Shown: positions 5,546-26,074 of the stretch, piece by piece
Layout: each line of letters begins with the position of its first letter
Position numbering within the stretch: the stretch's first letter is position 1
Origin: Oehlia diaphana
Taxonomy: Eukaryota; Glomeromycota; Glomeromycetes; Glomerales; Glomeraceae
Assembly (NCBI GenBank): GCA_003833135.1
Contig: QZLH01000161.1
Span: forward strand, 17,325-45,904
DNA length: 28,580 nt
Direction: 5' to 3'
Made by a program: the position numbers and the translations under genes
The notes under the pieces: generated by a model
Seen by the model: only the letters and a program-made list of their open reading frames with translations
Database searches by the model: none
Told to the model about the DNA's origin: nothing

Positions 5546-8226
5546 GGTCTGACAACGCATTTATGTACAGTATATTTAATTTATAATTATTTATACAGTT
5601 CTATACAAATTTCTTTCGATTTGATCAATTGAATTATTTAAATTCTAAGATTTGAATCTTTTTTCCTAATCTTGTTTACTGTGTTTTCAACTATTTATTA
5701 TTTTCATTTACTGTATGTTTGTTATTTTTAAACACTTCTACCCCACGTGACCGGTGACATTTAATGGGTTGTGACATTGATTTTACCAAAAATTCAATAA
5801 ACTATGGAAGAATATTATCAGTCATCCCACTCCCGCTTCTAATAATAGATTTTATTCGTCATCACTGTCACTTCCTTTCCGTTTCCGTAATTCATCAGTA
5901 TCTATCAGTCGGTATCTGGGGACTTAGGTTTTTGTCAAACTCCTATTTATCACATATTAGTTATTTTTTTTGCTACGATCACGTGCTGGGATGTGTTGGA
6001 GGACATATTTAATTAGTGAAACTTATTTTGACTATTGAAAACGAACAATGCTATGCGTAGAAAAGTGATAATGATGGAAAATGAATATAGTAAAATGAAT
6101 GGTAATCTATCTTTAACTTTGAACGTCTAAAATTTATTTGTTCAATTTATAATTTTAACTTCAGTTGTAAAATTTCTTCACCAGCTAATTAAAATTTCAT
6201 CGAAGGGTCGTTTCTTCTTAAAATGTTCTCGTTTTTGTGTTCAGCGGTTATTGTTTGCATTATGAAATATTGATTGTATGATTGAGAGGTGAAAGACTTT
6301 TGAGAATTAATTTGTTTTGATTCGTTTGATTTTTAAATTTTTTTTATTACTTGATAAGAAGCGAAACCGAGGTATATTCATAATAAATGGTATCAATCAA
6401 AGTTTATTGTGATATGTGAAAATTTTACTTTAATTTATTAATCGTTAAATTTAAATTTGCATTGTTTTCGCATTATGTATGGGATATTTTTATTACTTAT
6501 TTCCTATGTATTATCTCGACATTGCCTGCGATTATATTTTCTAAAAAAAATAACTATAATTATATAACTCTATTTTTATCATTAAAACAAAAAATTTTTA
6601 AAAAAGCTTACACGGATTATTTGTTAGTTTATTGTTGCAGCCTTCAAGAGTCAGTTATTTTATTAACATCTAAAAAGAAATTTTTTTTTTTAATTATTCG
6701 CAACGAAATAAAAATATCATGAAAATGAAATAATTACTAATTATTTAATTAATAAGAGGATAAAGCAATAAAACATCATCTCCTGTTCAAATAAGTTCTG
6801 TTATTAGAGTGTAGTGCGTAAACGTAGCAAGTAATAGTAATAAAATTTTGATTTAACCAGCCCTAATAGCCTAATCCAAAAAAAAACACAATAAATAAAA
6901 TGACCGTTAAAAATATATTTTCTTTTATAAAAAATGAAGATAAATAAGCGTTAGCGTAATATATTTTATTCGTTTCCGGCATTATATTTTTAGCTCAAAT
7001 TTTGACTTATTATACAATAATTGTCGTGTGACATGTGATTATAATTAGTTTATTTTATAATAATTTAAAAAAATAAAATTTTCTGATGCCATTATCGCGT
7101 CTTTATGCTTGTAATTTGGTAATTTGGTCCTTTGACTATTTTTAGTTTTAGTTGATTCTATTCTTATCATACGGTGTACTATGTAATAAAGAATAAAAAT
7201 ATTTTTTTGTACAGTAGCATATGAGGGTGATCGTAAATAGGATCATATGATTTCGGGACATTGAAATTTGGTGATAATAAACGGGATGTGATTATATATG
7301 ATGTGATTATAGAAAGGTCTGATATTATTGTAGCCAATAAAATTACAGTATATCTCATTCTAACTGTATTAAGAATTAGATACCTTAAAAGATCGGAATC
7401 CTAAAATTGTCAAATAATCTTGAATCTTAGAGCTTAAAGATCCTAAAGAATTCTATAGTTTAGTGGACCCTTAATTTAATCCTTAAGGATTTATAAAAAA
7501 AATCTAATTTCGGTTACGACATGTATCACATGATTAACATTTTAATAACCGCAGTTCCAGTGATCTCTTTATTTTTTAAAAATCTTTTTCTTTAACGAAA
7601 CTTCCTCCTTCTTTACTTTTTTTAGACGGGTCTGGACAAGTAGTTGGTAGGGCAATTTTTTTTTTAATTTATTTCCTTAACGAAATGTTTATTAATGTCT
7701 ATTTTAGCAGCTTATTCTTTAGGTTCTTTATCTCCCCCTATTTAACGGGAAAAAAGTACCTTTTAACAGAATTAATCTATCTTACTTGTTGATATACTGT
7801 ATAATCTCTAATATAGCTAGAACAATTGAAAGAAAATCTTTAAAAGGCACAATATTTTTTAAATATTTAATAAAATTTTATTTTTACGAAATAAAAAAAA
7901 GAACAATTTTACAAATTAAAATACGAAGAGTAATTTATAAATATTAAATATGTTTAATAAATAATATTAAAAAGTTACATTTGAATTATAAATGAGTAAA
8001 CTCACGGATGTAAACTTAGTGCATTTAATATTTAAGCATATAAAATCTAAGCATATAAATTTAAGAATATATACAGTTACAATTCATTTTCCTATACTCG
8101 AAAAATAATTAAAAAATTAAAATAGCTCAAAGCGCATTTAATCTTCATTTTTGTCGATTTAAAATATATATATATATCATATATAGACATGATTGTTTTT
8201 TTAATCTAATTAGAATGTATTATTTA

Positions 8227-9069
8227 TCAATTTAACAAATTTTGAATTTTTATCCGGTCAGAACCTTTAATTATTGGAAAGTCAATATCATGAAGATAGC
8301 CTTTTGGAACGTTAATATCTTGAGGTGAAGGTAATACGATTGTTGGAACATTATTATTATGGTTGAATACGTTATCATTTGAAGGTAATTGTCTTTTCCG
8401 TCTTTGTTTTAACGTTGAGGAATAATAATTTTTCACTTTACTTTCTGAACGAAATTTACCGAATTTATTTTTCATCTCTAAAATTAATTTTTTCCAGTTA
8501 ATGTTCTTAGATGGATTCTTTATTTTATATCCTTCAACCCAGTGGATAATGTAAAATTTTTCATTATTATCGAGTGGCCATTGACAAACTACAAAGAAAA
8601 TTTATAATCGAGTTACAATCAAATCAAGAACTTTAATTAAGTACAATTTACTTACGACGTGGATCGAGTTGACTTATCCATCTAAATTATTAATAAAATA
8701 AAATAAATTTTACGCAAAGAAAAATTAAATTTAATTAAATTATAATAATTTGAATATTTACCGCTGACGAATTTGCTTTGGAGAAAATCCTTTATTGATT
8801 TTTTTACTAATCATTACATAGCAGTTTGGCATAGCTTTATATTCATTCATAGCACTTATAATCTCGCTATCAATCTACAAGATTTTTTTTTTTTTTAAAA
8901 AATAAAAAAGAAAAAAGAAAAAAAAAATGAATTGGAAAATTGGCAAGAAATATTTTTTTTCTCAAAAGAAAAGAAAAAAACAAAATTTAATACGTACTAA
9001 TTCTATCTTATTTGTTTCTATCTTTTTTGATCGTTTCTTTCTTGATTGCCTCTTTTTTGGTTTGTTCAT
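8227..9069 (-). CDS. Gene A: type I two-repeat Myb/SANT-like protein (190 aa, four exons)
   Basis: Exons are 9069-8998, 8874-8762, 8681-8656 and 8588-8227; the spliced length is 191 codons with stop. The introns have donors GTACGT, GTAAAT and GTAAGT and end in TAG. The first 24 residues are very basic (KKRQSRKKRSKK), a likely nuclear signal. Residues about 25-70 form one Myb-like three-helix unit with third helix FSPKQIRQRWISQL followed by DPR; about 74-130 form a second unit with central WKK, then KFGKFRSESKVKNYY. Such proteins normally bind DNA in the nucleus; the target is unknown. The tail has two degenerate 13-residue repeats (N-H-N-N-N-V-P... and P-Q-D-I-N-V-P...). The closest relative is gene D, with identical exon lengths 72-113-26. 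It diverges from gene B across a 1.5 kb spacer. Confidence 0.8.
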
Positions 9070-9189
9070 ATTATTTTTTTTTTTTTTCATGAAAAAAAAA
9101 AATTAAATTCTTCGAATCAGTATTTTATACATTTTTTTGGTTTAAAATAATATATATAAATACAGGGGAAAAGTTATTAACTATGTTTA

Positions 9190-10463: not shown

Positions 10464-10605
10464 ATATTATGTAACTGTAAATAAAGTTTCAGGTTAGGGA
10501 AAGTAAATTTCTTCCTCTTTATTTTTGTTTAAAAAAATATATAAATTTGTTTCTATGAATTGATAAAAAATATTCTTATTATAAAAAAAAAATATTGTCC
10601 ACAAG

Positions 10606-11692
10606 ATGGAAGTGAAAAATTACAACTTTGTTTACCAAAATGTGGAAGACCTTGAAAAAATTGATGAAAATGAAAGTGTTAAAGACGACGACGAAAGTAC
10701 TGAAGATAATAAAAGTGACATTGATTACAACCGCAAACCAAAAAAATATAAAATTCGCAATAGCCGTAAAATCAATAGATTAACTAAAACAATAGACGAA
10801 GCCGTATGTTATAAAACAAATTTAAAATTAAAATATTCTCATCTTTTTAAAATATTAATTTTTTACTTCTTAGGGTAGGAAAATTATAATAGATCATATG
10901 GATGAATGGTTAAAAAGGGGAAGAAAACCTAGTAATGTTTTTAAAGAATTGGCTAAAAAATTAAAAGATAGTTGTGGCCAAGACTATGACTCTAAAGCTC
11001 TTTGTCATTTGTAAGTTATCAATTCATTTATTACGAGTGGTTTTTTTTTTAAAAAAAAAAAAAAAATAACTTTTTATTTTATAAATTTCAGTTACTGGAA
11101 CATACTTGATCCTAACGGCAAGTTTTAAAAAACTTTAATGTTTTTTTCTTATTAAGAATTGAATTGACTTTTATCGTTTTATTTAGTTGACCGTTCATCT
11201 TTTTCCCCGGAAGAGGAACATTATATTTGCGAATTGGTTGTAGAATATCAAAGAACAAATAATAACGGCCCTATTCCATGGAAGGATATTCAACCTAAGG
11301 TGAAAGCGAAATTTGGTAAATTTCGTTCGCGAAATAGTATCAAAAACGTTTGGTACGCTGGTCAAAGACGGAATGATCGATTGGCTATATTTGAAAGAGG
11401 TGAATTTAATACGATTAAAGACAAATTTGAAATTGAAGATAAAGATAAAATTGAATATAATAAAGAAATTGAAGAGAAAAGTTTAATTGATAATAATGGT
11501 GAAATTGATGATAAAGGCGAAATTAAATATGAAAATGAATTTGAAGGTATACCTGAAAAATTGCACCAACTCGCTTTTTCAGTTAATAAAATTGAACCTA
11601 CTACCAATCAAGAAAAACTTAAATTTCGTTACCTGTTGAATGATGATGATGAAAATGATAATGATGATTATAATATGGATTTAAAGTGTTAG
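10606..11692 (+). CDS. Gene B: type II two-repeat Myb/SANT-like protein (288 aa, four exons)
   Basis: Exons are 10606-10803, 10874-11010, 11092-11117 and 11187-11692; the total is 289 codons with stop. Residues 1-66 are an acidic then basic leader. About 67-120 form Myb-like unit 1 (EWLKRGRKPSNVFKELAKKL, third helix YDSKALCHFYWNIL, then DP). About 124-183 form unit 2 (FSPEEEHYICELV, PWKDI, KFGKFRSRNSIKNVW, RRND). A low-complexity acidic linker rich in E-I-E/D-K follows, about 40 residues longer than in gene C, then a conserved motif with QLAF and QEKLKFRYLLN. It is likely a nuclear DNA-binding protein. Intron 3 begins GCAAGT, a GC-AG intron; the C, A and D genes have GTAAGA/T at the same place and phase. 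It is transcribed away from gene A. Confidence 0.82.
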
Positions 11693-12480
11693 ATAGTAAT
11701 TTATTTTAATTGCTCTTCTTTATTTGTATCTCTTTATATTTCCTTTTTTTTTTTATAACTAACTTTCACAGCAAAATTCATATGGAATGTAACCTATAAT
11801 AAGTATAATGTAATGTGAGATTTGTGACAAATTGCTAAATATTATTCAAGTGATAGTGCAAATTACTAGGATGCCATTGCTTCGTAAAAAAATGTCCTAA
11901 TTTTAATTATAACTACATCCAAGTAATAATATAAATATGTAAATAGATATATATAACTTATAACTTTTCTTAGCGAAATAAATTAAAATAGTTACAGCCA
12001 AAGTTCAAGAAAAAAGAAAAGAATAAAGAAGAATTAAAATGATAAAGTAATTCTTAAGTGATGCATGTAGTTGGTCAAGGATTATTTAATATTCAGAACA
12101 CCGTCATATCTCATAATTTACATCAAATACATTTGAGTAATAGGTTGCGTTCTTGTAGTATCAAAGATTGTTGCTGGACAGGTTCTGACTCTTTGCAGAA
12201 ACCTATTAGCTATTGATTTTGAAAAATGTGATAAGCATATTACTGACAGATAGCAATTAATATACTCAACGTATTATTAAAATATTTAATATATTTGTAA
12301 TATCTTTATATATGCTGAATCTTTATATATGCTGAAATTTAAAGTTTAGAGCCACACTTAATATAATTTGATGATTACGCAAACAAACAAAATAAAAACA
12401 AATATTTCAAAAATATTACTATAATACTATAAAAATATAGTCAAAATATTTTATGACTCAAGTTTATAAATGATTTTTTA
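11693..12480. other. Downstream region of gene B
   Basis: The first 60 bases (GTGTTAGAT.. to ATATTTCC) match the region after the gene C stop, so the 3' untranslated part was duplicated with the gene. A frame of 51 codons starts at 12061 (MHVVGQGLFNIQ..., two adjacent cysteines, stop at 12216) with somewhat protein-like composition but no splice context; I do not call it a gene. Confidence 0.4.
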
Positions 12481-13360: not shown

Positions 13361-15201
13361 TCATCTTGTAACTTCAATTTCATTTTTTTTATTATTATTT
13401 AAGTTTAGAACTGGAAAGTTTTAGATTTTACAGAATAATAATAATATTAAAAATTATATAGTATTTTAAATTTTCGATAGATGACAACACGTAATAATAT
13501 TTAAATGTTATTGTTTTATTATATTTTAAGCATATTTTCAATATATAACAAAACACTCCTATTTCATATTTCTAACGTATTTCGATCTTGTATTTTAACA
13601 AAATTATGTTTAGCATATTGCTGTTATCGAGTTACAACGGTTAAGAAATGTATATGCAAAATGTCAATCATAGTTTAACAATGTTTTTATCTTATTTTCA
13701 AAATCGATAGGTTTCAGCAAAGTTGTTGAACAGATTGTTGAACTCGTTGATTCGATCAATGACTACGTGAGAATTGTAATTCGAGGGATATGAGAGGGAT
13801 TAATGCCAGTATGCCACTATTATTAACGTTTTCTGGTGGTCTGAGTATCACAATAGATAGTACGTGTATCATTTAGTAATTGATTTTGATCATAGAAGTT
13901 GTAGTACTAACAACATTTAATAATATTAATTTTCATAACATTAAATTCGTATTAGATATACCTGCGTTAGTAATTAAGGCTATTATCAAGAATTTTTTTT
14001 GGGTAGAGTTCATGTTTTGCAAATTCTCGATAATAATTATAAGAGTATTATTTATGAAGCGAAATTTTGAAATTAGTCATATATACTTACCCAATAAAAA
14101 ATTTTTCAGAAAAATGATCACATGTCTAAGTTTCTTCGGAATGAAAACTAGAAAAATGTTAATTTTTTCCAGAATTTTTTTTTTTATAGAGTTATTTTTA
14201 ACATAATCATGCAGTAAATTACTAGTCTGCGCTATACATTAATACATAATAAATGATAACAGCTTTACATGAAATTTGGTTGTACATGAAATACCTGGGT
14301 TTTTTCTTTAAATAAGGCTAGTATAATTTGATAGCATTCACCTATTTCCTTTTAGATGAAAATCAAAGTAAATATTGTTTCACAATAAATAGAAAGGAAA
14401 TAGATGAATGATCTACTCAGCCACAAATAACCGGAGCATTAGTAAAATTAAGTTGTGGAATTTATAACGTATTTGTTTATTTATTATTTGTATTTGCATC
14501 AAACTTGTTGGTTACACAGAGAGAATAAAATAAAACTTCTTTTTCCGTTCATTATGTTTTATGATTAAATGTTGCATATAGGAAGAAATGATCCATTTTA
14601 ATAGGAAAATAAATGTTTCGAAGTGACTCAATAAATTTCTAGAATCTGGATAGTTTCATTTCATAACTATTTTGTATAGTAGTTGATTTTGGTCCATAAT
14701 TTACATAGTTTAGTTTGCTCATATAATTATTTTTTTTTTTAAAAAAAAAAATACTAATATCCATCAAAGTAGTCATTGCTGTTTATACATTTTATTCATT
14801 AATTATAACATAAGAAACAAAGTTAACTATGTTTAGCATTTTAGTAATCAATTTTTAGATTCTTCGTCAAAGAACAGTTTTAACATACTGATTGGCAGTT
14901 ACAATCAAAAAAGGAATAAATTTTATTGTCCAAATTTCAACAATCAAAAAAGGTTTAAATTTAAAGTTTTTATTATCAAGTATAGTTCAAAAAAACTAAT
15001 ATAAAAAACTGAAAAATACATTAATATATTTACTATAAATAGTTGTGGTAATTTATGTGACGAAAAATTTAAATATAAACAATAAGAATAGAGAGTAGAA
15101 CCTCCCTTTATTTTCGTTTAAAAAAATCACTTTAAAATTTGATTTTATTAATTGATATACAATAAAAAGTATTCTTATCAGAAAAATATTTTGACCACAA
15201 A
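13361..15201. other. Intergenic region upstream of gene C
   Basis: No convincing gene. A short protein-like frame lies at about 13711-13791 (+, GFSKVVEQIVELVDSINDYV, then a stop) directly after a CGATAG acceptor-like site; it may be an exon remnant. A perfect 11-base inverted repeat (CTATTTCCTTT at 14342, AAAGGAAATAG at 14393) can form a hairpin. From about 14740 on, the DNA is alignable with the upstream region of gene B (AACATAAGAAACAA and following words). Confidence 0.5.
14901..14953 (+). promoter_or_regulatory. CAATCAAAAAAGG motif pair upstream of gene C
   Basis: ACAATCAAAAAAGGAATAAA begins at 14901 and CAATCAAAAAAGGTTTAAA at 14941, about 300 and 260 bases before the gene C start. They correspond to the motif cluster upstream of gene B, but the ATCACGTGAT palindrome found there is absent here. 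Confidence 0.5.
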
Positions 15202-16155
15202 ATGGAGACGAAAACCCACGACTTTGCTGACAACGATATAAAAGACCACGAAAAAATTGATGACGTCAAGAGTGTTGAAGAAGGCAAAAGTACTGAAGAC
15301 AACGAAAGTGTTAAAGAAAGTAACATTGGTTTCAACCGCAAATCAAAAAAAATTAAAGTCCGCAAAGTGAATAAGAATGTTGCCCTCAGGAAGAATACCA
15401 ATAAAATACATAAAACAATAAGTGAAGAGGTATGTTATAGAACAAATTTAAATTTAATGGAAAAAAAATATTCGCATTTTTAAAATTAATTTTTTACTTT
15501 TTAGGGTAAGAAAATTATATTAGATTATATGGAATACTGGATAAAAGGAAGAAAACCTAGCAATCCTTTTAAAGAATTGACTAAAAGATTAAAAGATAGT
15601 TGTGGCCATGACTATGACTCAAAAGCTATTTGTGACTAGTAGGTTATCATTATTACGAGTGATTTTTTTTTAAAAAAATAAATTAACTTTTTATTTTATA
15701 AATTTTAGTTACTGGAACATACTTGATCCTCAACGTAAGATTTAAAAAATCTGCTTGTTTTTTGTTAAGAAGAATTAACTTTTTATTTTAATTATTTAGT
15801 TGACCATTCGCCTTTCTCTCCGGAAGAGAAAAATTATATTTGCGAACAGGCAAGTAATTATCAAGATGGTGATATTCCATGGAAGGATTTACAACCTAAG
15901 ATGGAAGAGAAATTTGGTAAATTGCGCTCGCGAAACAGTCTTAAAAACGTTTGGAACTCCAATAAAAGGCGTAACGATCGATTAGCTAAAGAAGTTAAAA
16001 GAAATGAAGATAAAATTGAAGATATAACTGAAAAAATGAACCAACTCGCTTTTCCAACTAATGAACCTGGAACTTACACCAAACAAGAAAAACTTGAACT
16101 TCGATACCTGTTGAATAAAGATTATGAAAATGATAAAAATGATGATTCAGATTAA
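15202..16155 (+). CDS. Gene C: type II two-repeat Myb/SANT-like protein (247 aa, four exons)
   Basis: Exons are 15202-15429, 15505-15638, 15709-15734 and 15800-16155; the total is 248 codons with stop. Intron 2 starts GTAGGT and removes what would otherwise be an in-frame TAG after ICD, so this is not a premature stop. Residues 1-76 are an acidic/basic leader; about 77-129 form Myb-like unit 1 (YWIKGRKPSNPFKELTKRL, third helix YDSKAICDYYWNIL, DPQ); about 133-190 form unit 2 (FSPEEKNYICEQA, PWKDL, KFGKLRSRNSLKNVW, NKRRND). The tail keeps QLAF and QEKLELRYLLN. It is closest to gene B in coding sequence, exon phases, upstream motif and 3' flank. It is presumed to bind DNA in the nucleus and is convergent with gene D. 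Confidence 0.82.
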
Positions 16156-16997
16156 ATAAGTGTTAGATTAGTAATTTATTTAAGCACTCCTCTTTATTTG
16201 TATCTTTATATTTCCTTTAACTTTTAATTATATTTTTTTTTAACTTTCAATTATATTTTTTAATAATTTGTAGTTATAGTGTTTTTTTGTAACTTTTATA
16301 TTTTTAATTATATTTCTTCAAATCCAAATAACGTATTTAGAACAAACCGTTAAAATTTTTTGCTTGTTTACAATTACGACAATTATTATTATTATAAGAC
16401 ACTAAAGAATTTCTCTTCAATCAATCATAAATCAAATTTTTTATTATTGTTAGAAATAAACGACTTTCTTGCATCATCTTAAAATACATTATTAATAGTA
16501 TATACTAATTTTGAAAAAATGTCTCAGTTAGCGATACTGTAGTTATTTTTTTGTTTATATAATATAAAATATGATCGTTTTACTTCATTAATTTCGTTCA
16601 AAGGAAATGTATTAGTTATATATAGTTTTAAGACAAAGATATGAAGTTTATAATGTAACGCTGATTGATTGTGTGATTAAGAAATGCGAATTTTATTCTT
16701 TAGACTTTCATGTTATCAAGAACTTAAATTCATTTTTTATTTCTAGACGTAATACGGTACCCCGTACTCTAGAGTTCAATATTTGCAAATATGTTGGACT
16801 TTCTATTAATTCATTTTCATATAATAAATCTGTTGATTAAAGTATATAATAATTTTATAGGTATTTTTATCCTATACAATAAAACAACATGATTGTTTTT
16901 TATGCTAATTAGGTGTATTATTTATTAAATTAACAAAATTTTTGATTTCATCTTGTCAGAAACTTGTCTTGATACGCGTTTTAGAACGTTTATTATC
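16156..16997. other. Convergent spacer between genes C and D
   Basis: A/T-rich DNA between two converging genes; no gene seen. The part just beyond the D stop (about 16915-16990) still aligns with the coding end of gene A, showing that D once had a longer tail. Confidence 0.55.
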
Positions 16998-17727
16998 TTA
17001 AGATGAAAGTGATACTGTCGGAATGTTATTATCTTGAGGGGAAGGCGATATGGTTGTTGGAAAGTTGTTATCTTGAAAACAAAATAAAACGTTTTTTGGG
17101 ATGTTGTTATCTTGAAAACAAAATGACAAGCTTTTTAAGATGTTGTTATCTTGAGGGGAAGATGATGCATCATCTTTTGAAGGTAATTGCTTTCGTCGTC
17201 TTTCTTGTCTTTTTTTTAAGTACCAAAAATTTTTCACCCTATTTTCAGTACGTAATTTACCGAATTTTTTGTCCATCTCTAAAATTAATTTTGTCCAGCA
17301 AATTTTATCAGATGGACTCTGATTTTTATATTCTTTAACCCATTCATTGATGTATGATTTTTCATCCTCATCGAGTTCATTGTGACAGACTAGAAAAAAA
17401 ATCAAATTACACAATCAATTTAAGAAAGCTTTAATAAGGTAAAATTTACTACTTACGACGTGGATCGAGTTGACTTATCCAACTAAATTATGAATAAAAT
17501 AAAATAAATTTTTACGAAAAAAAAAAAAATAATTAATTTATAATAAATTAATATTTTACCGCTGACGAATTTGTTTTGAGGTAAATCCTTTATTGATTTT
17601 TTTACTAATCTTTATATATGGGTTAGGTTCATTTTTATATTCATTCATAGCACTTATAATCTCATTATCAAACTACGAGAATTTTTTTTAAAAAAAACAA
17701 AAAAAAAACACGATGAATTGGAAAGAA

Positions 17728-17760
<33 letters not shown>

Positions 17761-17844
17761 AATAATAAGTACTAATTCTATCTTTTCTGTTTTTATCTTT
17801 TTCGTTTGTAACTTTTTTTGTTGTTTCTTTTTTGGTTCGCCCAT
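16998..17844 (-). CDS. Gene D: type I two-repeat Myb/SANT-like protein (200 aa, four exons)
   Basis: Exons are 17844-17773, 17672-17560, 17482-17457 and 17389-16998; the total is 201 codons with stop. The exon lengths 72-113-26 and all intron phases equal those of gene A. The 24-residue leader is very basic (KKKQQKKLQTKKIK). Residues about 25-70 form Myb-like unit 1 (third helix FTSKQIRQRWISQL, DPR) and about 74-130 form unit 2 (WTK, KFGKLRTENRVKNFW, RRRK). Residues 149-200 are four 13-residue repeats of the type (P/F)QDNN(I/F)(P/L)..., which run to the stop. Compared with gene A, the stop TAA falls where the next repeat has CAA, so the tail is shortened. Likely a nuclear DNA-binding protein. 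Confidence 0.8.
17001..17156 (-). repeat. 39-base (13-codon) in-frame tandem repeat, four units
   Basis: Four units of 39 bases encode the C-terminal tail of gene D, each beginning with a CAAGATAA(C/T)AAC-type core for QDNN. The two middle units also share TTTTGTTTT before the core. Gene A has two more diverged units at the same place, so copy number varies between paralogues. Confidence 0.8.
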
Positions 17845-18407
17845 ATTTTTTTTTTAAAAAAAAAATAAATAAATAAAATTTTTCGATACAGTATTTATAC
17901 ATTCATTTTTTTTAATTTGAAATATAATATATAAACATCGGAAGAAAAGTTATTTAACTATGTTATTTTTTTAATGGTCATTGTTCTATCACGTGATCAA
18001 TCATCAAATACAATTTGATTATGTGATTAATTGATAACAATTAAATGTCGGACAAAAACTTTTATTCACAATCAAAAAAGGAATAAATTTGATTGTTCAA
18101 AAATTTTACAATCAAAAAAGGAACATTCTATTGTCCAAAATTATTATAATCAAAAAAGGATGTGTAAAACTTAATAACTTCACAGTTTTTTTTTTTAATA
18201 CTAAATAAATACTAAATAAAATTACATTTCCCAAACTATAATTTAACAATCAAAAAAAGCCATTACATTTGAATAAAGTTTCAGGTTGTGATAATGATAC
18301 ATTTATATGTAATTATTATGAATAAACACCCCTGCCTATTAATTGACTTTTTTAAAAAAAAAAGAATAACCATGAAAAATTGTTGGCCAAAAAAGGTTTG
18401 ACCACAA
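17845..18407. promoter_or_regulatory. Divergent spacer between gene D and the broken copy psi
   Basis: The D-proximal part has AAGAAAAGTTATTTAACTAT, like the A-proximal part of the A-B spacer. ATCACGTGAT lies at 17988-17997. CAATCAAAAAAGG-type motifs lie at 18068, 18108 and 18147, and ACAATCAAAAAAAGCCATT at 18245 is followed by AATAAAGTTTCAGGTT, as upstream of gene B (10445 on). This indicates that the D-psi pair and the A-B pair derive from one divergent module. Confidence 0.6.
17988..17997. promoter_or_regulatory. ATCACGTGAT palindrome in the D-psi spacer
   Basis: The same 10-base CACGTG-containing palindrome as in the A-B spacer, in a matching position relative to the divergent pair. A role as a transcription factor site is inference. 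Confidence 0.4.
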
Positions 18408-19260
18408 ATGAAACGCTCAATACGAGCCATACCAGCTCGAAACAGCTCACGAGCCAGGTATATTGAGCCGAGCCGAGCCGCGGCTCGCAATAAACTGGCT
18501 CACGAGTTATGAGCCGGCTAAAAAATAATATTTGCACACGTGATCATCAGCTGATCATTCTATATATTTAAAATCTCGAGTTAAGCTGGTTCGAATTTTG
18601 GCTCGGCTCAGCTCGAGCTGGCTCATGCAGAGCTTTACACAATTTAAGGCCACGAGTTTTTATCACAAAACAAAAGACTAAAAAAATTGATGACTACTAA
18701 TAAAACATGCCAATAATATTGATAAAACAATGAAGTTGCATATAAGAATAAAATTTAAACTATTTATTTTTACCATTTAAGAAGAGAAAATTATAAAGAA
18801 AAAATGGAAAAAATCATCAAAGAATCTTTTCGTAGAATTGGCTTGATCGTTATAATGGAAAAGCCATTTAACTCATTTATATTACTTTATTTCTTAAAAA
18901 AAAAAAGTAAATTAACTTTTATTTTGAAAATTTAGTTGACGTAACATACTTTATTCTCGCTGTTAGTTTAAATTAAATTACATTTCTGTTATTTTTCTTT
19001 AATTAAAAAGTTAAATTAGTTTGGCTTTCATTTTTATTTATATTCATCTTTCTTTCAGGAAGAGAAGAATTATATTTGAGAATAGATCAAATAAACTCAT
19101 ATTCCGAAAGGATTTACAATCTAAGATGAAAGCAAATTTGGCAAATTTCGCTCGTGAAATAGTTTCAAACCCGGTTGAAACTCTAGTAAAAATCGCATAA
19201 GGCTAAAAGAAATGAAGTTAGTAAATTGAAAAAAATGAAATTGAAGATAAAAATAAAATT
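18408..19260 (+). pseudogene. psi: broken type II Myb-like gene, copy of B/C
   Basis: The start region TTTGACCACAAATG matches that of gene C (TTTTGACCACAAAATG). After a few bases it is interrupted by a GC-rich insertion (about 18416-18648); homology resumes with CCACGAG and AAAAAATTGATGAC, as in C exon 1. Further matches are a degraded exon 2 (about 18780-18870), the T/A-rich intron 2, exon 3 (TTGACGTAACATACTTTATTC), and exon 4 (GAAGAGAAGAATTATATTTG, AAGGATTTACAATCTAAGATG, AATTTCGCTCGTGAAATAG). Exon 4 has in-frame stops and a lost base in the FGKFRSR block. It is clearly not functional as a two-repeat protein. It diverges from gene D. Confidence 0.75.
18416..18648. mobile_element. GAGCC/GGCTC-rich insertion in psi exon 1
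   Basis: About 230 bases, much richer in G and C than anything nearby. It contains CGAGCCGCGGCTCG (perfect palindrome), GAGCCGAGCCGAGCC on the left, and GGCTCGGCTCAGCTCGAGC on the right in the opposite sense, which gives an inverted-repeat layout. The ends are inferred from where alignment to gene C exon 1 breaks (after ATGAAACG) and resumes (CCACGA). It has no coding capacity; a nonautonomous DNA transposon is likely. I cannot define a target duplication. Confidence 0.6.
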
Positions 19261-19427
19261 GCAAGTAATTCTTGTCTCTCCGCTATATGTGAAAGCATGA
19301 TTGGGATTAAAGCAATGGCGAATTAAAGATAAAATGTATTATTTTTTTCAATCTTATTATTATTTTTGTAGTTTAATTTTAAAACAAATACTATTAAATT
19401 TTCTTTGTCTACAATAACGGAAATTTA

Positions 19428-22422: not shown

Positions 22423-25400
22423 ATGTCTCACAAGTATATTAATACTTCGAACCTCCAAAACTCTCAACCTTATACACAGATGAATTTAGGATTTCAAGAT
22501 TTACTTATGACAATGTCTAACAGTAACAATAATACGGAAGGTAAAAAAATATATAGCATGAATGTAGTATTTAACGTCATTTTAAAATTTATATTATGTT
22601 AATATTAGTTTCGAGTATCGGTGAAGTATCTAAGTCTGACAGTAAATATAATATTCATTATTATTTAAATTCTTTGTTTAAAATATTAAATTCAACTATT
22701 AATTTAAACTAAATGCTAATATACAGTAGAATGTAAGTTATTTACTTTTATCGTTACGTTGTGTGTCAGATGTCGATCGTGCGTCAGCTGCCAGTCGATT
22801 AATGCTGGCCGCTCTCTTAAGGCATCATAAAAATTTAGCCGATTGTCATCTGAAGGCACAGCAGAAAAAATGCACACAATATAATAATGCTTAATATTCA
22901 TTTACACATAATTAATAATAATACTATAGGGGGTAAGTTAATTTTTTAAAATTTTATACAATATTTATATTTAATTTAACTAACAAATTAAATCTTATAA
23001 TATTATATCGACATAATGTAGCATGTAAGTTATTTTAAATTTTAATATATTTTAATATTTGTTTTTACTAAATTCTTAATGTTAAATTATTGATAATATT
23101 GCAGCTAGTGAGTTGCTTGATTCTATTATCTATACCTTATGTGATGTTTGCAGCACATGTTAAACTATTTATATAATATTATAGAGGGTAAACTATTAGT
23201 TATTTGGTTCAATCATGTTTATATGAAATATCAGCTCAACTTTTTTTTGATATTTTAATAAACTTAAACTAATTCAGAATGTAAGTTACATATTTACTTT
23301 ATTAATTGTACTGATTTTTAAAATATGTTAATGTCAAATTTAACAAAATTGATTATTTGGAAATAAATTTAATATAGGGAGTAAGTACTAAGTATATGTC
23401 TTAACTTCTATTACATTCTATATCATATAATTTAATCAAATTCTTTATTATCATAATATTATAGCTGGTAACCGTGGTAAGTTATAAATATTCAAATTTT
23501 ATGTATTACCATTTTGCACTGCCTAAAGCATCAGTCCTGGATCTAATAATATACCCGTTGGCCGTTGGTACATGTGAGATGCCAAGTATAATAAGCTTTG
23601 CATTAATTACCAGCATTTAGGGATACTCGAGCCTTATAATATGTAAATTGGGATACTTTGAAAGTGCAGGATGTTATTCGTGTATTTCATGTACAATTAA
23701 AGTACTGTAATTTAACTAATTAAAATTCCTTGTTTGTAAAAATTATTTATTAATTAATAATATATAGGGAGTAAGTTATTTAAACTACTGTTATAATTTT
23801 GCAATATAGTACTATATTTATATATAATTTATACTAATTAAAATTTTCATTTAAAATTATTTATTAATTTATTTAGTTAGTAAGCATATATTTTATTCAA
23901 CTTATTTATTCTGCATGGATACCTAATTTAAACTAACTAACTTCTTGTTTAAATAATCATTGTTATTGTAACAGATTGTAAGTTATTTAATTTTATTACG
24001 CGTTTATGGATATTTTATATATACTGCACATATTAATTAAATTAATTATTATTAATTAAATTAATAATATAGGGAGTAGGTTATTTGTATTTATTATATT
24101 TTATAATATTATACATAAAATTTAAACTAACTAAATCTTTAATTATACATAATTTACAATAACTAATAAATAATTTTTATTTGAATAATACAGCATGTAA
24201 GTACTGTATTTGATTTTTGCATAATATATTTATAAGATTCATATTAATTAAATTTTTTTTTTAAAAAAAATACTTGATGAACTACCTTAGTTGGTAAGTT
24301 TGTTATATTCTATAATAATGTTTAAAAATAATATATATTAATTAAAATAAACATTTATTTTATAATATAGCATGCAAGTATTTAATTTTAATATATTATT
24401 TGCGTTTCAAAATTTAAGCTAATTTAATTTTTATTTAACAAAATATTATTTAGTTAGTGAGTTGAAATTTTATCCATATTTCATATTTATATCATTTACA
24501 ATTTACGAATACCAAATATTTATTTAAAATATTTAATTATTTACTTAGTTCGTAAGTTATAAATTATTTTAATTTTATTAAATTTTGTATAATACTTATG
24601 TGTAATTTAAATTTAATGTTTTATTTAAAAAATATTTGGCAATTACTTAGTTGGTAAGTTATAAATATTTAATTTTATTATTTTTATATAATATTTAACA
24701 TATAATTTTACTATATTTAGTTTGTAAGTTATATATAATATAAAATGCTAGTTTGCAATATTCATATAATTTAATAACTAAATATTTTATTTAAAAAACA
24801 TGTGATGATTTACTGCAGTTAGTAAGTAATAAGTTATTTAATTTGTTTTTTTATATATAATATTTACATATATTAACTTAATTTCATATTTATTACTCAT
24901 TTTTAGCTTGTAAGTTATAACTGAAATTCTTTTAGTTTATTTTTTAATTATTATATAAATTAATTAAAATTCTTTATTTTAGGGGGTAAGTTATTTAATT
25001 TGTATTTATTTGCATACAATCTAAGCTAACTAAATATTTTATTAAAAAAAATTAATAATATACCTATATCTAGCTAGTAAGTAATAAATTATTTATTATT
25101 TTGTATAATATATATTTAATTATAGTTATTAAACTAATTAAATTTTTTATTTAGAAAGTAAGTTATAATTTAATTTGTACATATCATCAAAATTAACTAA
25201 CTTTTTACTTAAAAAATATATTATTTGGCAATTTATTTTAATAGTTTGTAAGTTATAAGGATTATTTAATTTTATTATTTATATATAATATATATACTAA
25301 ACTAATTAAATTTTAATATTATAGGTTGTAAGTTATTTGAATTTATTACATTTTATATTACATTACTTGTGTATTAATTATATTAACCAAGTTCTTTACT

Positions 25401-25700
25401 TGGAAATCTTTAGCAAGTAAGTTACATAGTAAATATTATTTAACTTTGTTAGTCAGTGTATTTTATAGTAATATATGTATTTACCATATTAAATTTTTAT
25501 TTAGAAAGTGAGTTATAATTTATTTAATTATAATATAAATTATAATATTTTATATTAAATAAATATCTTTACTTTTTAATAATGCTGAAAATTTATTTTA
25601 GTTTGTAAGTCATTAATTATTTAATATTTTATAATTGTATTTTATATAATTTAAACTAGTAATTAATTTCTTTAATACTACGCGTTTCGCAAAATATTAA
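22423..25700 (+). CDS. Candidate gene built from 29 single-codon exons (predicted 92 aa)
   Basis: Exon 1 (22423-22540) encodes MSHKYINTSNLQNSQPYTQM and on to NNNTE; exon 2 (22609-22641) adds VSSIGEVSKSD. Then come 29 units of the form AG, three bases, donor. The triplets end at 22732 (AAT; or six bases from 22727), 22932, 23024, 23107, 23187, 23280, 23380, 23467 (or a 12-base exon to 23476), 23770, 23879, 23977, 24075, 24196, 24293, 24373, 24456, 24551, 24653, 24723, 24822, 24909, 24985, 25076, 25157, 25247, 25327, 25416, 25507 and 25604. Of these donors, 21 are exactly GTAAGT; one is GCAAGT. Exons 1 and 2 set phase 1, which stays open through every triplet and gives a hydrophobic run including NWTFAFILVFTWAKIC, a possible membrane span. 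An acceptor at 25659 leads to a short end and TAA at 25698. Total 279 bases, a multiple of three. Function unknown; actual splicing is unproven. Confidence 0.5.
22755..22875. repeat. GC-richer insert inside intron 3 of the microexon gene
   Basis: This intron is 197 bases, about twice the usual length in the array. The excess is a GC-richer block from TGTGTGTCAGATG to AGGCACAGCAG with CGATCGTGCGTCAGCTGCC inside, unlike the A/T-rich intron sequence around it. The splice sites are intact. It looks like inserted DNA. Confidence 0.5.
23515..23700. repeat. GC-richer insert inside the longest intron of the microexon array
   Basis: The intron between the CTG unit (23465) and the GGA unit (23768) is about 300 bases, three times the array average, because of a block from TTTGCACTGCCTAAAG to about ATTTCATGTACAATT with non-repetitive, less A/T-rich sequence. 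The flanking splice sites are kept, so the unit spacing has absorbed an insertion. Confidence 0.5.
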
Positions 25701-26074
25701 CTAAGCCACAATTACGATTATGTAAATCACGTGATAGTGAAATTTTTGATGGTGTTACTGGGGAAGATATATATTGCGTTTTTTTTTTTAAATATAAAAA
25801 ATTAAAAGTAATAATTAAAAATAACATAAGAAATATAGTAGATAGTTATGGGTTTCAAAATACAGGACTGTTCTATCTAATATTAAAAAAGAAATCATTT
25901 TCAACCATTTCTAATAACATTCATTTCTTGTTTAATTTTTCTTTAGACCATGCTGTACATTTCCCTAACATTTTTATCTGTTTGTTGAAGTTGTTAGTAA
26001 AGTATCAAGAGAATAATAAGTTAAAAGCAGCTGAAAAATTATTAATAACCTTCGACTCTAATTATTTTAGATAG
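25676..26074 (+). CDS. Long open frame without ATG, possible terminal exon or gene remnant
   Basis: Some 132 codons are open, ending TAG at 26072-26074, with no ATG at all. The start of the frame reads like protein (LRLCKSRDSEIFDGVTGEDI), as does the end (DHAVHFPNIFICLLKLLVKY and a lysine/glutamate helix to SNYFR). The middle is lysine/asparagine/phenylalanine-rich and could hide an intron. In DNA this rich in A/T a stop is expected about every ten to twelve codons, so chance is an unlikely explanation. An AG at 25704-25705 would open it in phase 0, whereas the microexon chain arrives in phase 1, so the two do not join in the simplest model. It may be the true last exon in an alternative frame, a separate broken gene, or an exon of an unseen isoform. 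Confidence 0.4.
   Translation, partial: YYAFRKILTKPQLRLCKSRDSEIFDGVTGEDIYCVFFFKYKKLKVIIKNNIRNIVDSYGFQNTGLFYLILKKKSFSTISNNIHFLFNFSLDHAVHFPNIFICLLKLLVKYQENNKLKAAEKLLITFDSNYFR

Follow-up and report, generated by a model that had tools for sequence, protein, structure and literature searches.

How finely can introns divide a coding sequence? The question is raised by a stretch of 28,580 nucleotides of the glomeromycete Oehlia diaphana (contig QZLH01000161.1, positions 17,325 to 45,904 of the forward strand; hereafter the window), in which an AG is followed, time after time, by exactly three bases and then by a splice donor. An earlier note on this DNA had read the array as a chain of 29 one-codon exons. 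Our analysis of the sequence makes it highly probable that the window carries 29 predicted one-codon exons spliced successively and in order, and that it is a member of a family which mostly encodes kinases. All 29 sites were found, the first triplet lying at 22730-22732 and the last at 25602-25604, and 21 of them conformed exactly to AG-N3-GTAAGT, the number given in the note. The other eight donors were GTGAGT (3), GTAAAC, GTAACC, GTAAGC, GTAGGT and GCAAGT. With the spacer allowed to vary between positions 22701 and 25700, AG-Nk-GTAAGT occurred 21 times with k = 3 and 0-1 times with each other k from 0 to 14. AG-N3-GTAAGT was absent from the rest of the window, and 1000 dinucleotide shuffles averaged 0.033 such sites, with one at most. 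Every one of the 29 triplets falls within the size of a microexon (30 nt or less, flanked by an acceptor and a donor). As described before, the 28 introns between the triplets measured 67-118 nt, save for two of 197 and 300 nt, and no stop was encountered when exon 1, exon 2 and the 29 triplets were translated. Since exon 2 leaves one base over, each codon would join the final base of one triplet to the two that open the following triplet.

The same arrays were found elsewhere in the AT-rich assembly (108.8 Mb). The paired pattern TAG-N3-GTAAGT-(50-80)-TAG-N3-GTAAGT had 447 matches in the genome, while the same pattern written backwards had none, nor did the pattern with a four-base spacer. 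Twenty further loci (L033-L052) were picked from the paired-pattern matches and from a pattern of the array end. On the array strand of the first 18 loci, [TC]AG-Nk-GTAAGT was counted 381 times with k = 3, 15 times with k = 1 and 0-5 times with any other k up to 30, counts which are unbiased by the chaining described below, although the 18 loci had themselves been located via the k = 3 pattern. Strict-pattern three-base sites were absent from the opposite strand in all 18. Altogether, 635 three-base exons were chained in 21 arrays (the window and the 20 loci). The longest was that of L051, with 67 three-base exons in the locus and an uninterrupted run of up to 39.

These loci share a layout at both ends. 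By eye, the chain follows a short ATG exon and one or more additional short exons in L033, L034, L036, L038, L039, L042, L043, L048 and L050, and predicted starts of the array genes read MAQSNNK... or MANSNDK.... Among the arrays whose first triplet is CTC, CTT, ATC, TTC or CTG, nine of 12 N-terminal ones start with codons for L-[END]-[ND]-W (L033, L034, L038, L039, L042, L044, L048, L050 and L052, not L036, L037 and L043); the window, L035, L045, L046, L047, L049 and L051 stand outside this set, some of them lacking the 5' end. At the 3' end of the array, the last triplet, mostly TTG, is followed by a one-base exon and then by the kinase exons. Joined in this way, L033 gave MAQSNNKVSKIEKDKALENWYHQ..., L034 gave MAQSKDKVSKIEKDKALENWYYH... 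and L039 gave MAQSNDKVSKIEEDKTLENWFDH..., two bases being carried into the kinase exon in all three, as EFGTSG... needs; thus, the one-base exon is required for the frame in these loci. The exact array-end pattern with the one-base exon was present at 31 places in the genome, nine of which were read, and at none in the viral contigs.

A kinase match (E <= 1e-5) was found on the array strand in 15 of the 20 loci, just 3' of the array in 13 and 5' of it in two. L036 had a kinase match on the opposite strand only, and L043, L044, L048 and L050 had none, L044 ending at the edge of the fetched stretch. The L033 prediction matched Pfam PF07714 with an E value of 6.4e-31. For the first kinase exon there were 1616 candidate places in the genome; of the 150 that were scored, 76 matched with E < 1e-12. 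L040 and L041, both on contig C38, differ from the others: by eye their introns seem unrelated, and the array follows the kinase domain on its 3' side. The layout therefore has two positions and probably two origins. By eye, the catalytic lysine and the HRD aspartate seem to be absent from L033 (1144-2071, minus strand; EVILRYF, HYNFHNGN), and this array-bearing kinase may be a pseudokinase, while the L041 kinase seems to retain both. A Rhizophagus irregularis protein annotated as 'kinase-like protein, partial' (P0003) has a match in the L041 kinase and breaks off at YEYTLK, which is the last ordinary exon ahead of a nine-base exon and the array. This end suggests that a similar array is present in R. 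irregularis too, where it halted the gene model. Arrays of this kind may thus explain broken-off Rhizophagus gene models such as P0003, and, as P0003 stops before the array, part of the very large kinase repertoire of these symbionts may be misannotated; 2,533 kinases are reported for the R. irregularis genome (PMC10234402).

If the triplets are translated, stops should be missing where they are joined. We chained the three-base exons without regard to frame in the 21 arrays, with at least four sites in each. The junction codons in the frame of the ATG exon contained no stop (0/577), against 27.7 ± 4.1 stops, and never fewer than 14, when the order of the triplets was permuted within arrays 2000 times. 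The other junction frame contained 96 stops in 577 codons (75.6 on permutation), and the triplets read by themselves contained 3 in 635. The protection was confined to immediate neighbours. With neighbours joined, 0 of 577 junctions were stops as against 27.8 expected; with one exon skipped there were 23 of 521 (25.0 expected), with two 25 of 471 (22.5) and with three 18 of 424 (20.2), and as far as lag 8 stops stayed near chance. The result was unchanged when repeats of an ordered pair within an array were counted only once (0/499 against 26.0). Because stops are absent solely at neighbour junctions, selection appears to act on the triplets as spliced consecutively, each to the one next to it. 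In the DNA some 90 nt separate the bases of a junction codon, which come together only in a spliced mRNA that holds the two triplets next to one another; their joint constraint thus speaks, for the family as a whole, for inclusion of all triplets in sequence and for their translation. On these sequence comparisons, the triplets are very probably coding throughout the family. The one-codon reading, drawn earlier from a single array, is thus supported by a test across the whole family, whose kinase genes, related introns and one-base exon, like the broken 3' end of the window copy, had gone unseen. The chains were picked by dynamic programming, the looser version favouring three-base exons and the strict one admitting only those; hence, the exon lengths counted in the chains are not independent evidence, unlike the spacer counts in the window and the paired-pattern counts in the genome, which did not pass through the chaining.

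Several results weigh against this interpretation. The 21 arrays are related, so the junction tests are not fully independent, and the window array on its own is weak evidence, its 0 stops in 26 junctions having a permutation chance of 0.107. A further 37 junctions over gaps of more than 140 nt were excluded for a possible missed exon, and one of them (in L035) is a stop. When other exon lengths were allowed in the looser chain, stops appeared in the window, L035, L043 and L050; they fall where odd-sized exons were picked. Public gene models of the window gene (P0001) and of its R. irregularis relative (P0002) end otherwise than predicted here. Pfam found no domain in the window peptide, even at E <= 10, and a search for the L033 array peptide in annotated proteins returned 11 candidates, none with E <= 10. 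Lastly, in-frame stops were present in 7 of the 76 best kinase-exon matches (G000:C106:118301, C958:20630, C954:39702, C123:31955, C106:23337, C448:65821 and C167:7775), a sign of decay in some members of the family; two of these stop-bearing exons (L034, L044) adjoin arrays that are still without junction stops.

The window copy itself departs from the layout at its 3' end. Its predicted exon 1 (22423-22540, plus strand) contains an ATG at 22514 that gives a family-like start, MSNSNNNTE, and continues as VSSIGEVSKSD; the L042 counterpart reads MANSNDK-VSSTSTEESE, and the two starts are 75% identical over 65 nt in blastn. Predicted exon 2 (22609-22641, plus strand) has 33 nt and leaves one nucleotide for the next codon. 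A 73-aa database protein of Rhizophagus diaphanus, C1646_766877, matches the window at 100% and by eye consists of exon 1, exon 2 and read-through beyond, a match that makes this arbuscular mycorrhizal fungus the most likely source of the DNA. The last array intron (25605-25678) resembles the other array introns until near 25675. The 3' end of the array is disrupted by a dispersed repeat at 25679-25768; both features are on the plus strand. This repeat has four near-full copies elsewhere (85-99% identical), and seven shorter matches to the queried stretch were found. The native 3' end therefore lies outside the window. The 279-base coding product expected earlier fits a last exon at 25660-25700 on the one hand; on the other, the array homology ends near 25675 and the repeat follows. 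The window had no kinase match (best E 1.9), and its contig (C161) did not appear when 150 of 1616 candidate kinase-exon matches were scored. The window gene joins the family by its N-terminal exons and its array alone. We regard it most readily as an old family member deprived of its native 3' end by insertion of the repeat or by rearrangement, and it may make no kinase now.

Whether this array is a dead relic, the live ones being those of intact kinase genes, is an evenly balanced matter. The dispersed repeat, the missing kinase match and the absence of C161 from the scored kinase exons speak for a relic, as do the window introns, which are the least alike of the 17 arrays compared (mean identity 0.61, against 0.59 when shuffled). 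Against a relic stand the 29 of 29 acceptor and donor pairs kept, the 21 of 29 perfect donors, the open frame, and 20 of 20 residues of exons 1 and 2 (MSNSNNNTEVSSIGEVSKSD) that are identical, by eye, in R. irregularis P0002.

Three readings concern the arrays as such. The triplets may be coding and yet be used in combinations, alternative skipping of frame-neutral exons giving many isoforms as in schistosomes. The frame would survive any skip and the encoded segment is hypervariable; nevertheless, stops occur at about chance in the junctions that a skip would produce (lags 2-8), with no sign of protection, and we give combinatorial use only a small chance. Still less likely is a tandem intron satellite, put forward earlier as a skipped, amplified intron, in which the splice-like ends persist by descent, the block leaves the transcript as a single large intron or a few of them and the triplets are skipped. 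The introns within an array are indeed related copies, and public gene models ignore the triplets. This satellite would not, however, account for stops that are missing specifically between neighbours (0/577) with further pairs at chance, for a spacing of exactly three bases despite varying intron length (447 paired matches, none genome-wide with four), for a one-base exon pattern at 31 places that is in frame where joined, or for first codons that dispersed copies have in common. Least likely of all is recursive splicing, also raised earlier, in which a long intron is ratcheted out in steps and the three bases are incidental, perhaps re-removed: acceptor and donor do adjoin at all sites and sequential removal is likely under any model, but AG-N0-GTAAGT is missing from the array and occurs a single time across 18 oriented loci, and re-removed bases give no reason for stop-free neighbour junctions.

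If the triplets are one-codon exons, their introns offer a plausible route of removal. The 577 array introns had a median length of 93 nt (5-95% range 77-111), with GTAAGT donors in 463 and TAG acceptors in 532. A branch-like CTAAY, TTAAC or CTGAY motif was present anywhere in 474 of the 577, a count for which no chance level was set. The donors located after the first kinase exon were GTATGA in 11 of 12 cases, GTAAGA in one and GTAAGT in none. With their strong GTAAGT donors, the array introns may be recognised by intron definition and removed singly, since splice sites three bases apart could hardly both be occupied together. Each removal would then lengthen the growing exon by three bases, thereby completing a codon split as one base plus two. 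The paper on the one-base exon of APC11 reasons alike for its two introns (PMC4674806).

The introns also hint at how the arrays arose. Mean intron identity within arrays was 0.61-0.82, compared with 0.59-0.64 for shuffles, in 17 arrays, the comparison leaving aside introns longer than 140 nt and four arrays with fewer than eight introns. Block copying was evident in L040, where introns 4/21 and 5/22 are alike at 99-100%, L041 has a seven-unit period, and repeated peptides were present in L039 (DHHRRIDHHRR) and L038 (LNGRRTLNGRRTLN). Given this relatedness within an array, the probable mode of growth is duplication of an intron together with one codon. Simple copying of one unit was rejected, for adjacent triplets showed no excess identity in the 17 arrays (smallest p 0.159). 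By duplication or deletion of such units an array could lengthen or shorten with the frame always kept, and the stretch it encodes would be free to vary, or might be selected to vary.

Triplets were compared with their flanking introns in pairs that did not overlap and whose flanks were both at least 88% alike, 35 pairs in all, drawn from 9 arrays. Triplet bases differed at 31 of 105 positions and intron bases at 344 of 6488 (Fisher p 6e-15), about five times more for the triplets, although the choice of pairs with similar introns lowers the intron figure. When pairs were chosen on one flank, the other intron differed by 0.064-0.099 per site and the triplets by 0.263-0.433. By codon position, the differences were lowest at the wobble base (6/35), as against 10 and 15 at the others. 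The triplets thus vary more than the introns around them, which suggests that they encode a hypervariable segment. The contrast fits diversifying selection, or conversion of introns with the codons held apart; either way, selection would see the triplets. Homogenisation of the introns would yield an equal contrast, and diversifying selection is therefore not claimed as shown. Taken together, we lean towards an undescribed kind of coding minisatellite whose unit is an intron plus a single codon, in which lengthening, shortening or conversion of the array would alter the protein residue by residue without a frameshift. The N- or C-terminal segment of dozens of kinases would thus be hypervariable, with one-codon exons outpacing their introns, and the spliceosome would remove up to about 67 introns consecutively.

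The predicted three-base exons of the window, all on the plus strand, are, in order: AAT (22730-22732), GGG (22930-22932), CAT (23022-23024), CTA (23105-23107), AGG (23185-23187), AAT (23278-23280), GGA (23378-23380), CTG (23465-23467), GGA (23768-23770), TTA (23877-23879), ATT (23975-23977), GGA (24073-24075), CAT (24194-24196), TTG (24291-24293), CAT (24371-24373), TTA (24454-24456), TTC (24549-24551), TTG (24651-24653), TTT (24721-24723), TTA (24819-24821), CTT (24907-24909), GGG (24983-24985), CTA (25074-25076), AAA (25155-25157), TTT (25245-25247), GTT (25325-25327), CAA (25414-25416), AAA (25505-25507) and TTT (25602-25604). The enlarged intron of 197 nt (22733-22929, plus strand) resembles, by eye and from 22769 onward, the third predicted exon of R. 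irregularis P0002; within it, 22769-22810 corresponds to the segment that the P0002 model seems to use as its last exon (NVGRASAASRASND). The enlarged intron of 300 nt (23468-23767, plus strand) was considered as a repeat insertion, a proposal left unsupported as 23480-23730 matches only itself in the genome. An ORF at 25676-26074 was rejected as a C-terminal exon; it had no Pfam match and its first part overlaps the dispersed repeat. A repeat containing CACGTGA seems, by eye, to recur beside arrays, upstream of the L039 array and from 25679 onward in the window.

A Myb-domain reading of the window peptide (KWASKEW...TWAKICSKI, from its tryptophan spacing by eye) was dropped because Pfam returned nothing at E <= 10 and the relatives proved to be kinase genes, and an HMG-box look-alike, also seen by eye, was rejected in the face of the same two results. 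Elsewhere in the window lies a cluster of Myb/SANT-like genes, at 8200-9100 (minus), 10600-11700 (plus), 15200-16200 (plus), 17000-17900 (minus) and about 18800-19300 (plus). Two of them matched PF00249 with E values of 9.3e-05 and 0.0038, both under the curated cut-off; the others were assigned by eye, and one copy is apparently degenerate. Between 12915 and 13350 several short exon-like stretches, each followed by a donor resembling gtaagttt, were seen by eye; they may belong to another gene with short exons or with tandem introns.

If the one-codon reading is true, these genes are split at every codon over a long stretch, far beyond what models of exon recognition consider, and the family provides built-in replicates. 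It would make testable a fixed order of removal for introns three bases apart, the fidelity of splicing across dozens of steps, and the making of new introns and new codons together by tandem intron duplication. We know of no counterpart to the array architecture taken as a whole, and it would divide a coding sequence more finely than any case known to us. Among known systems, the micro-exon genes of schistosomes likewise have many consecutive short frame-neutral exons per gene. Their exons measure 6-36 nt and encode secreted proteins with a signal peptide, whereas here each exon is predicted to be exactly one codon, the genes are mostly kinase genes and the introns are related copies. Introners, or introner-like elements, are copies of one intron sequence spread across genes; the arrays resemble them in their multiplied intron copies but differ in being head-to-tail, with one codon between copies. 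In recursive splicing, the AG of a ratchet point lies directly beside the GT, leaving a zero-length exon. The arrays have in common with it an adjoining acceptor and donor and sequential removal, but in place of the AG-GT adjacency they have three bases under coding constraint.

Recursive splicing is mentioned in a paper on microexons, which also describes single 3-nt exons and the 1-nt exon of Arabidopsis APC11 (PMC4674806). As proposed there for exons of 1-3 nt, intron definition and successive removal would apply here; the exons described there are single tiny ones, however, unlike the chains here, which number 29 exons in the window and reach 67 in one locus. Xlr2 of Trichoderma likewise has a functional microexon in a filamentous fungus (PMC11121469), but one that is alternatively included and not part of a chain. 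No chain of one-codon exons was present among the matches listed in the open-access literature, the search leaving subscription papers outside its scope; a single paper in it, on Rhizoctonia, contains both 'Rhizophagus' and 'microexon' (PMC4014442). In a stwintron, one intron interrupts a splice element of another. The stwintrons and propagating sister stwintrons of the Hypoxylaceae (PMC9024468) are also fungal introns that have multiplied as similar copies and are removed consecutively; they leave no exon, whereas in the arrays described here a codon stands between every pair of introns.

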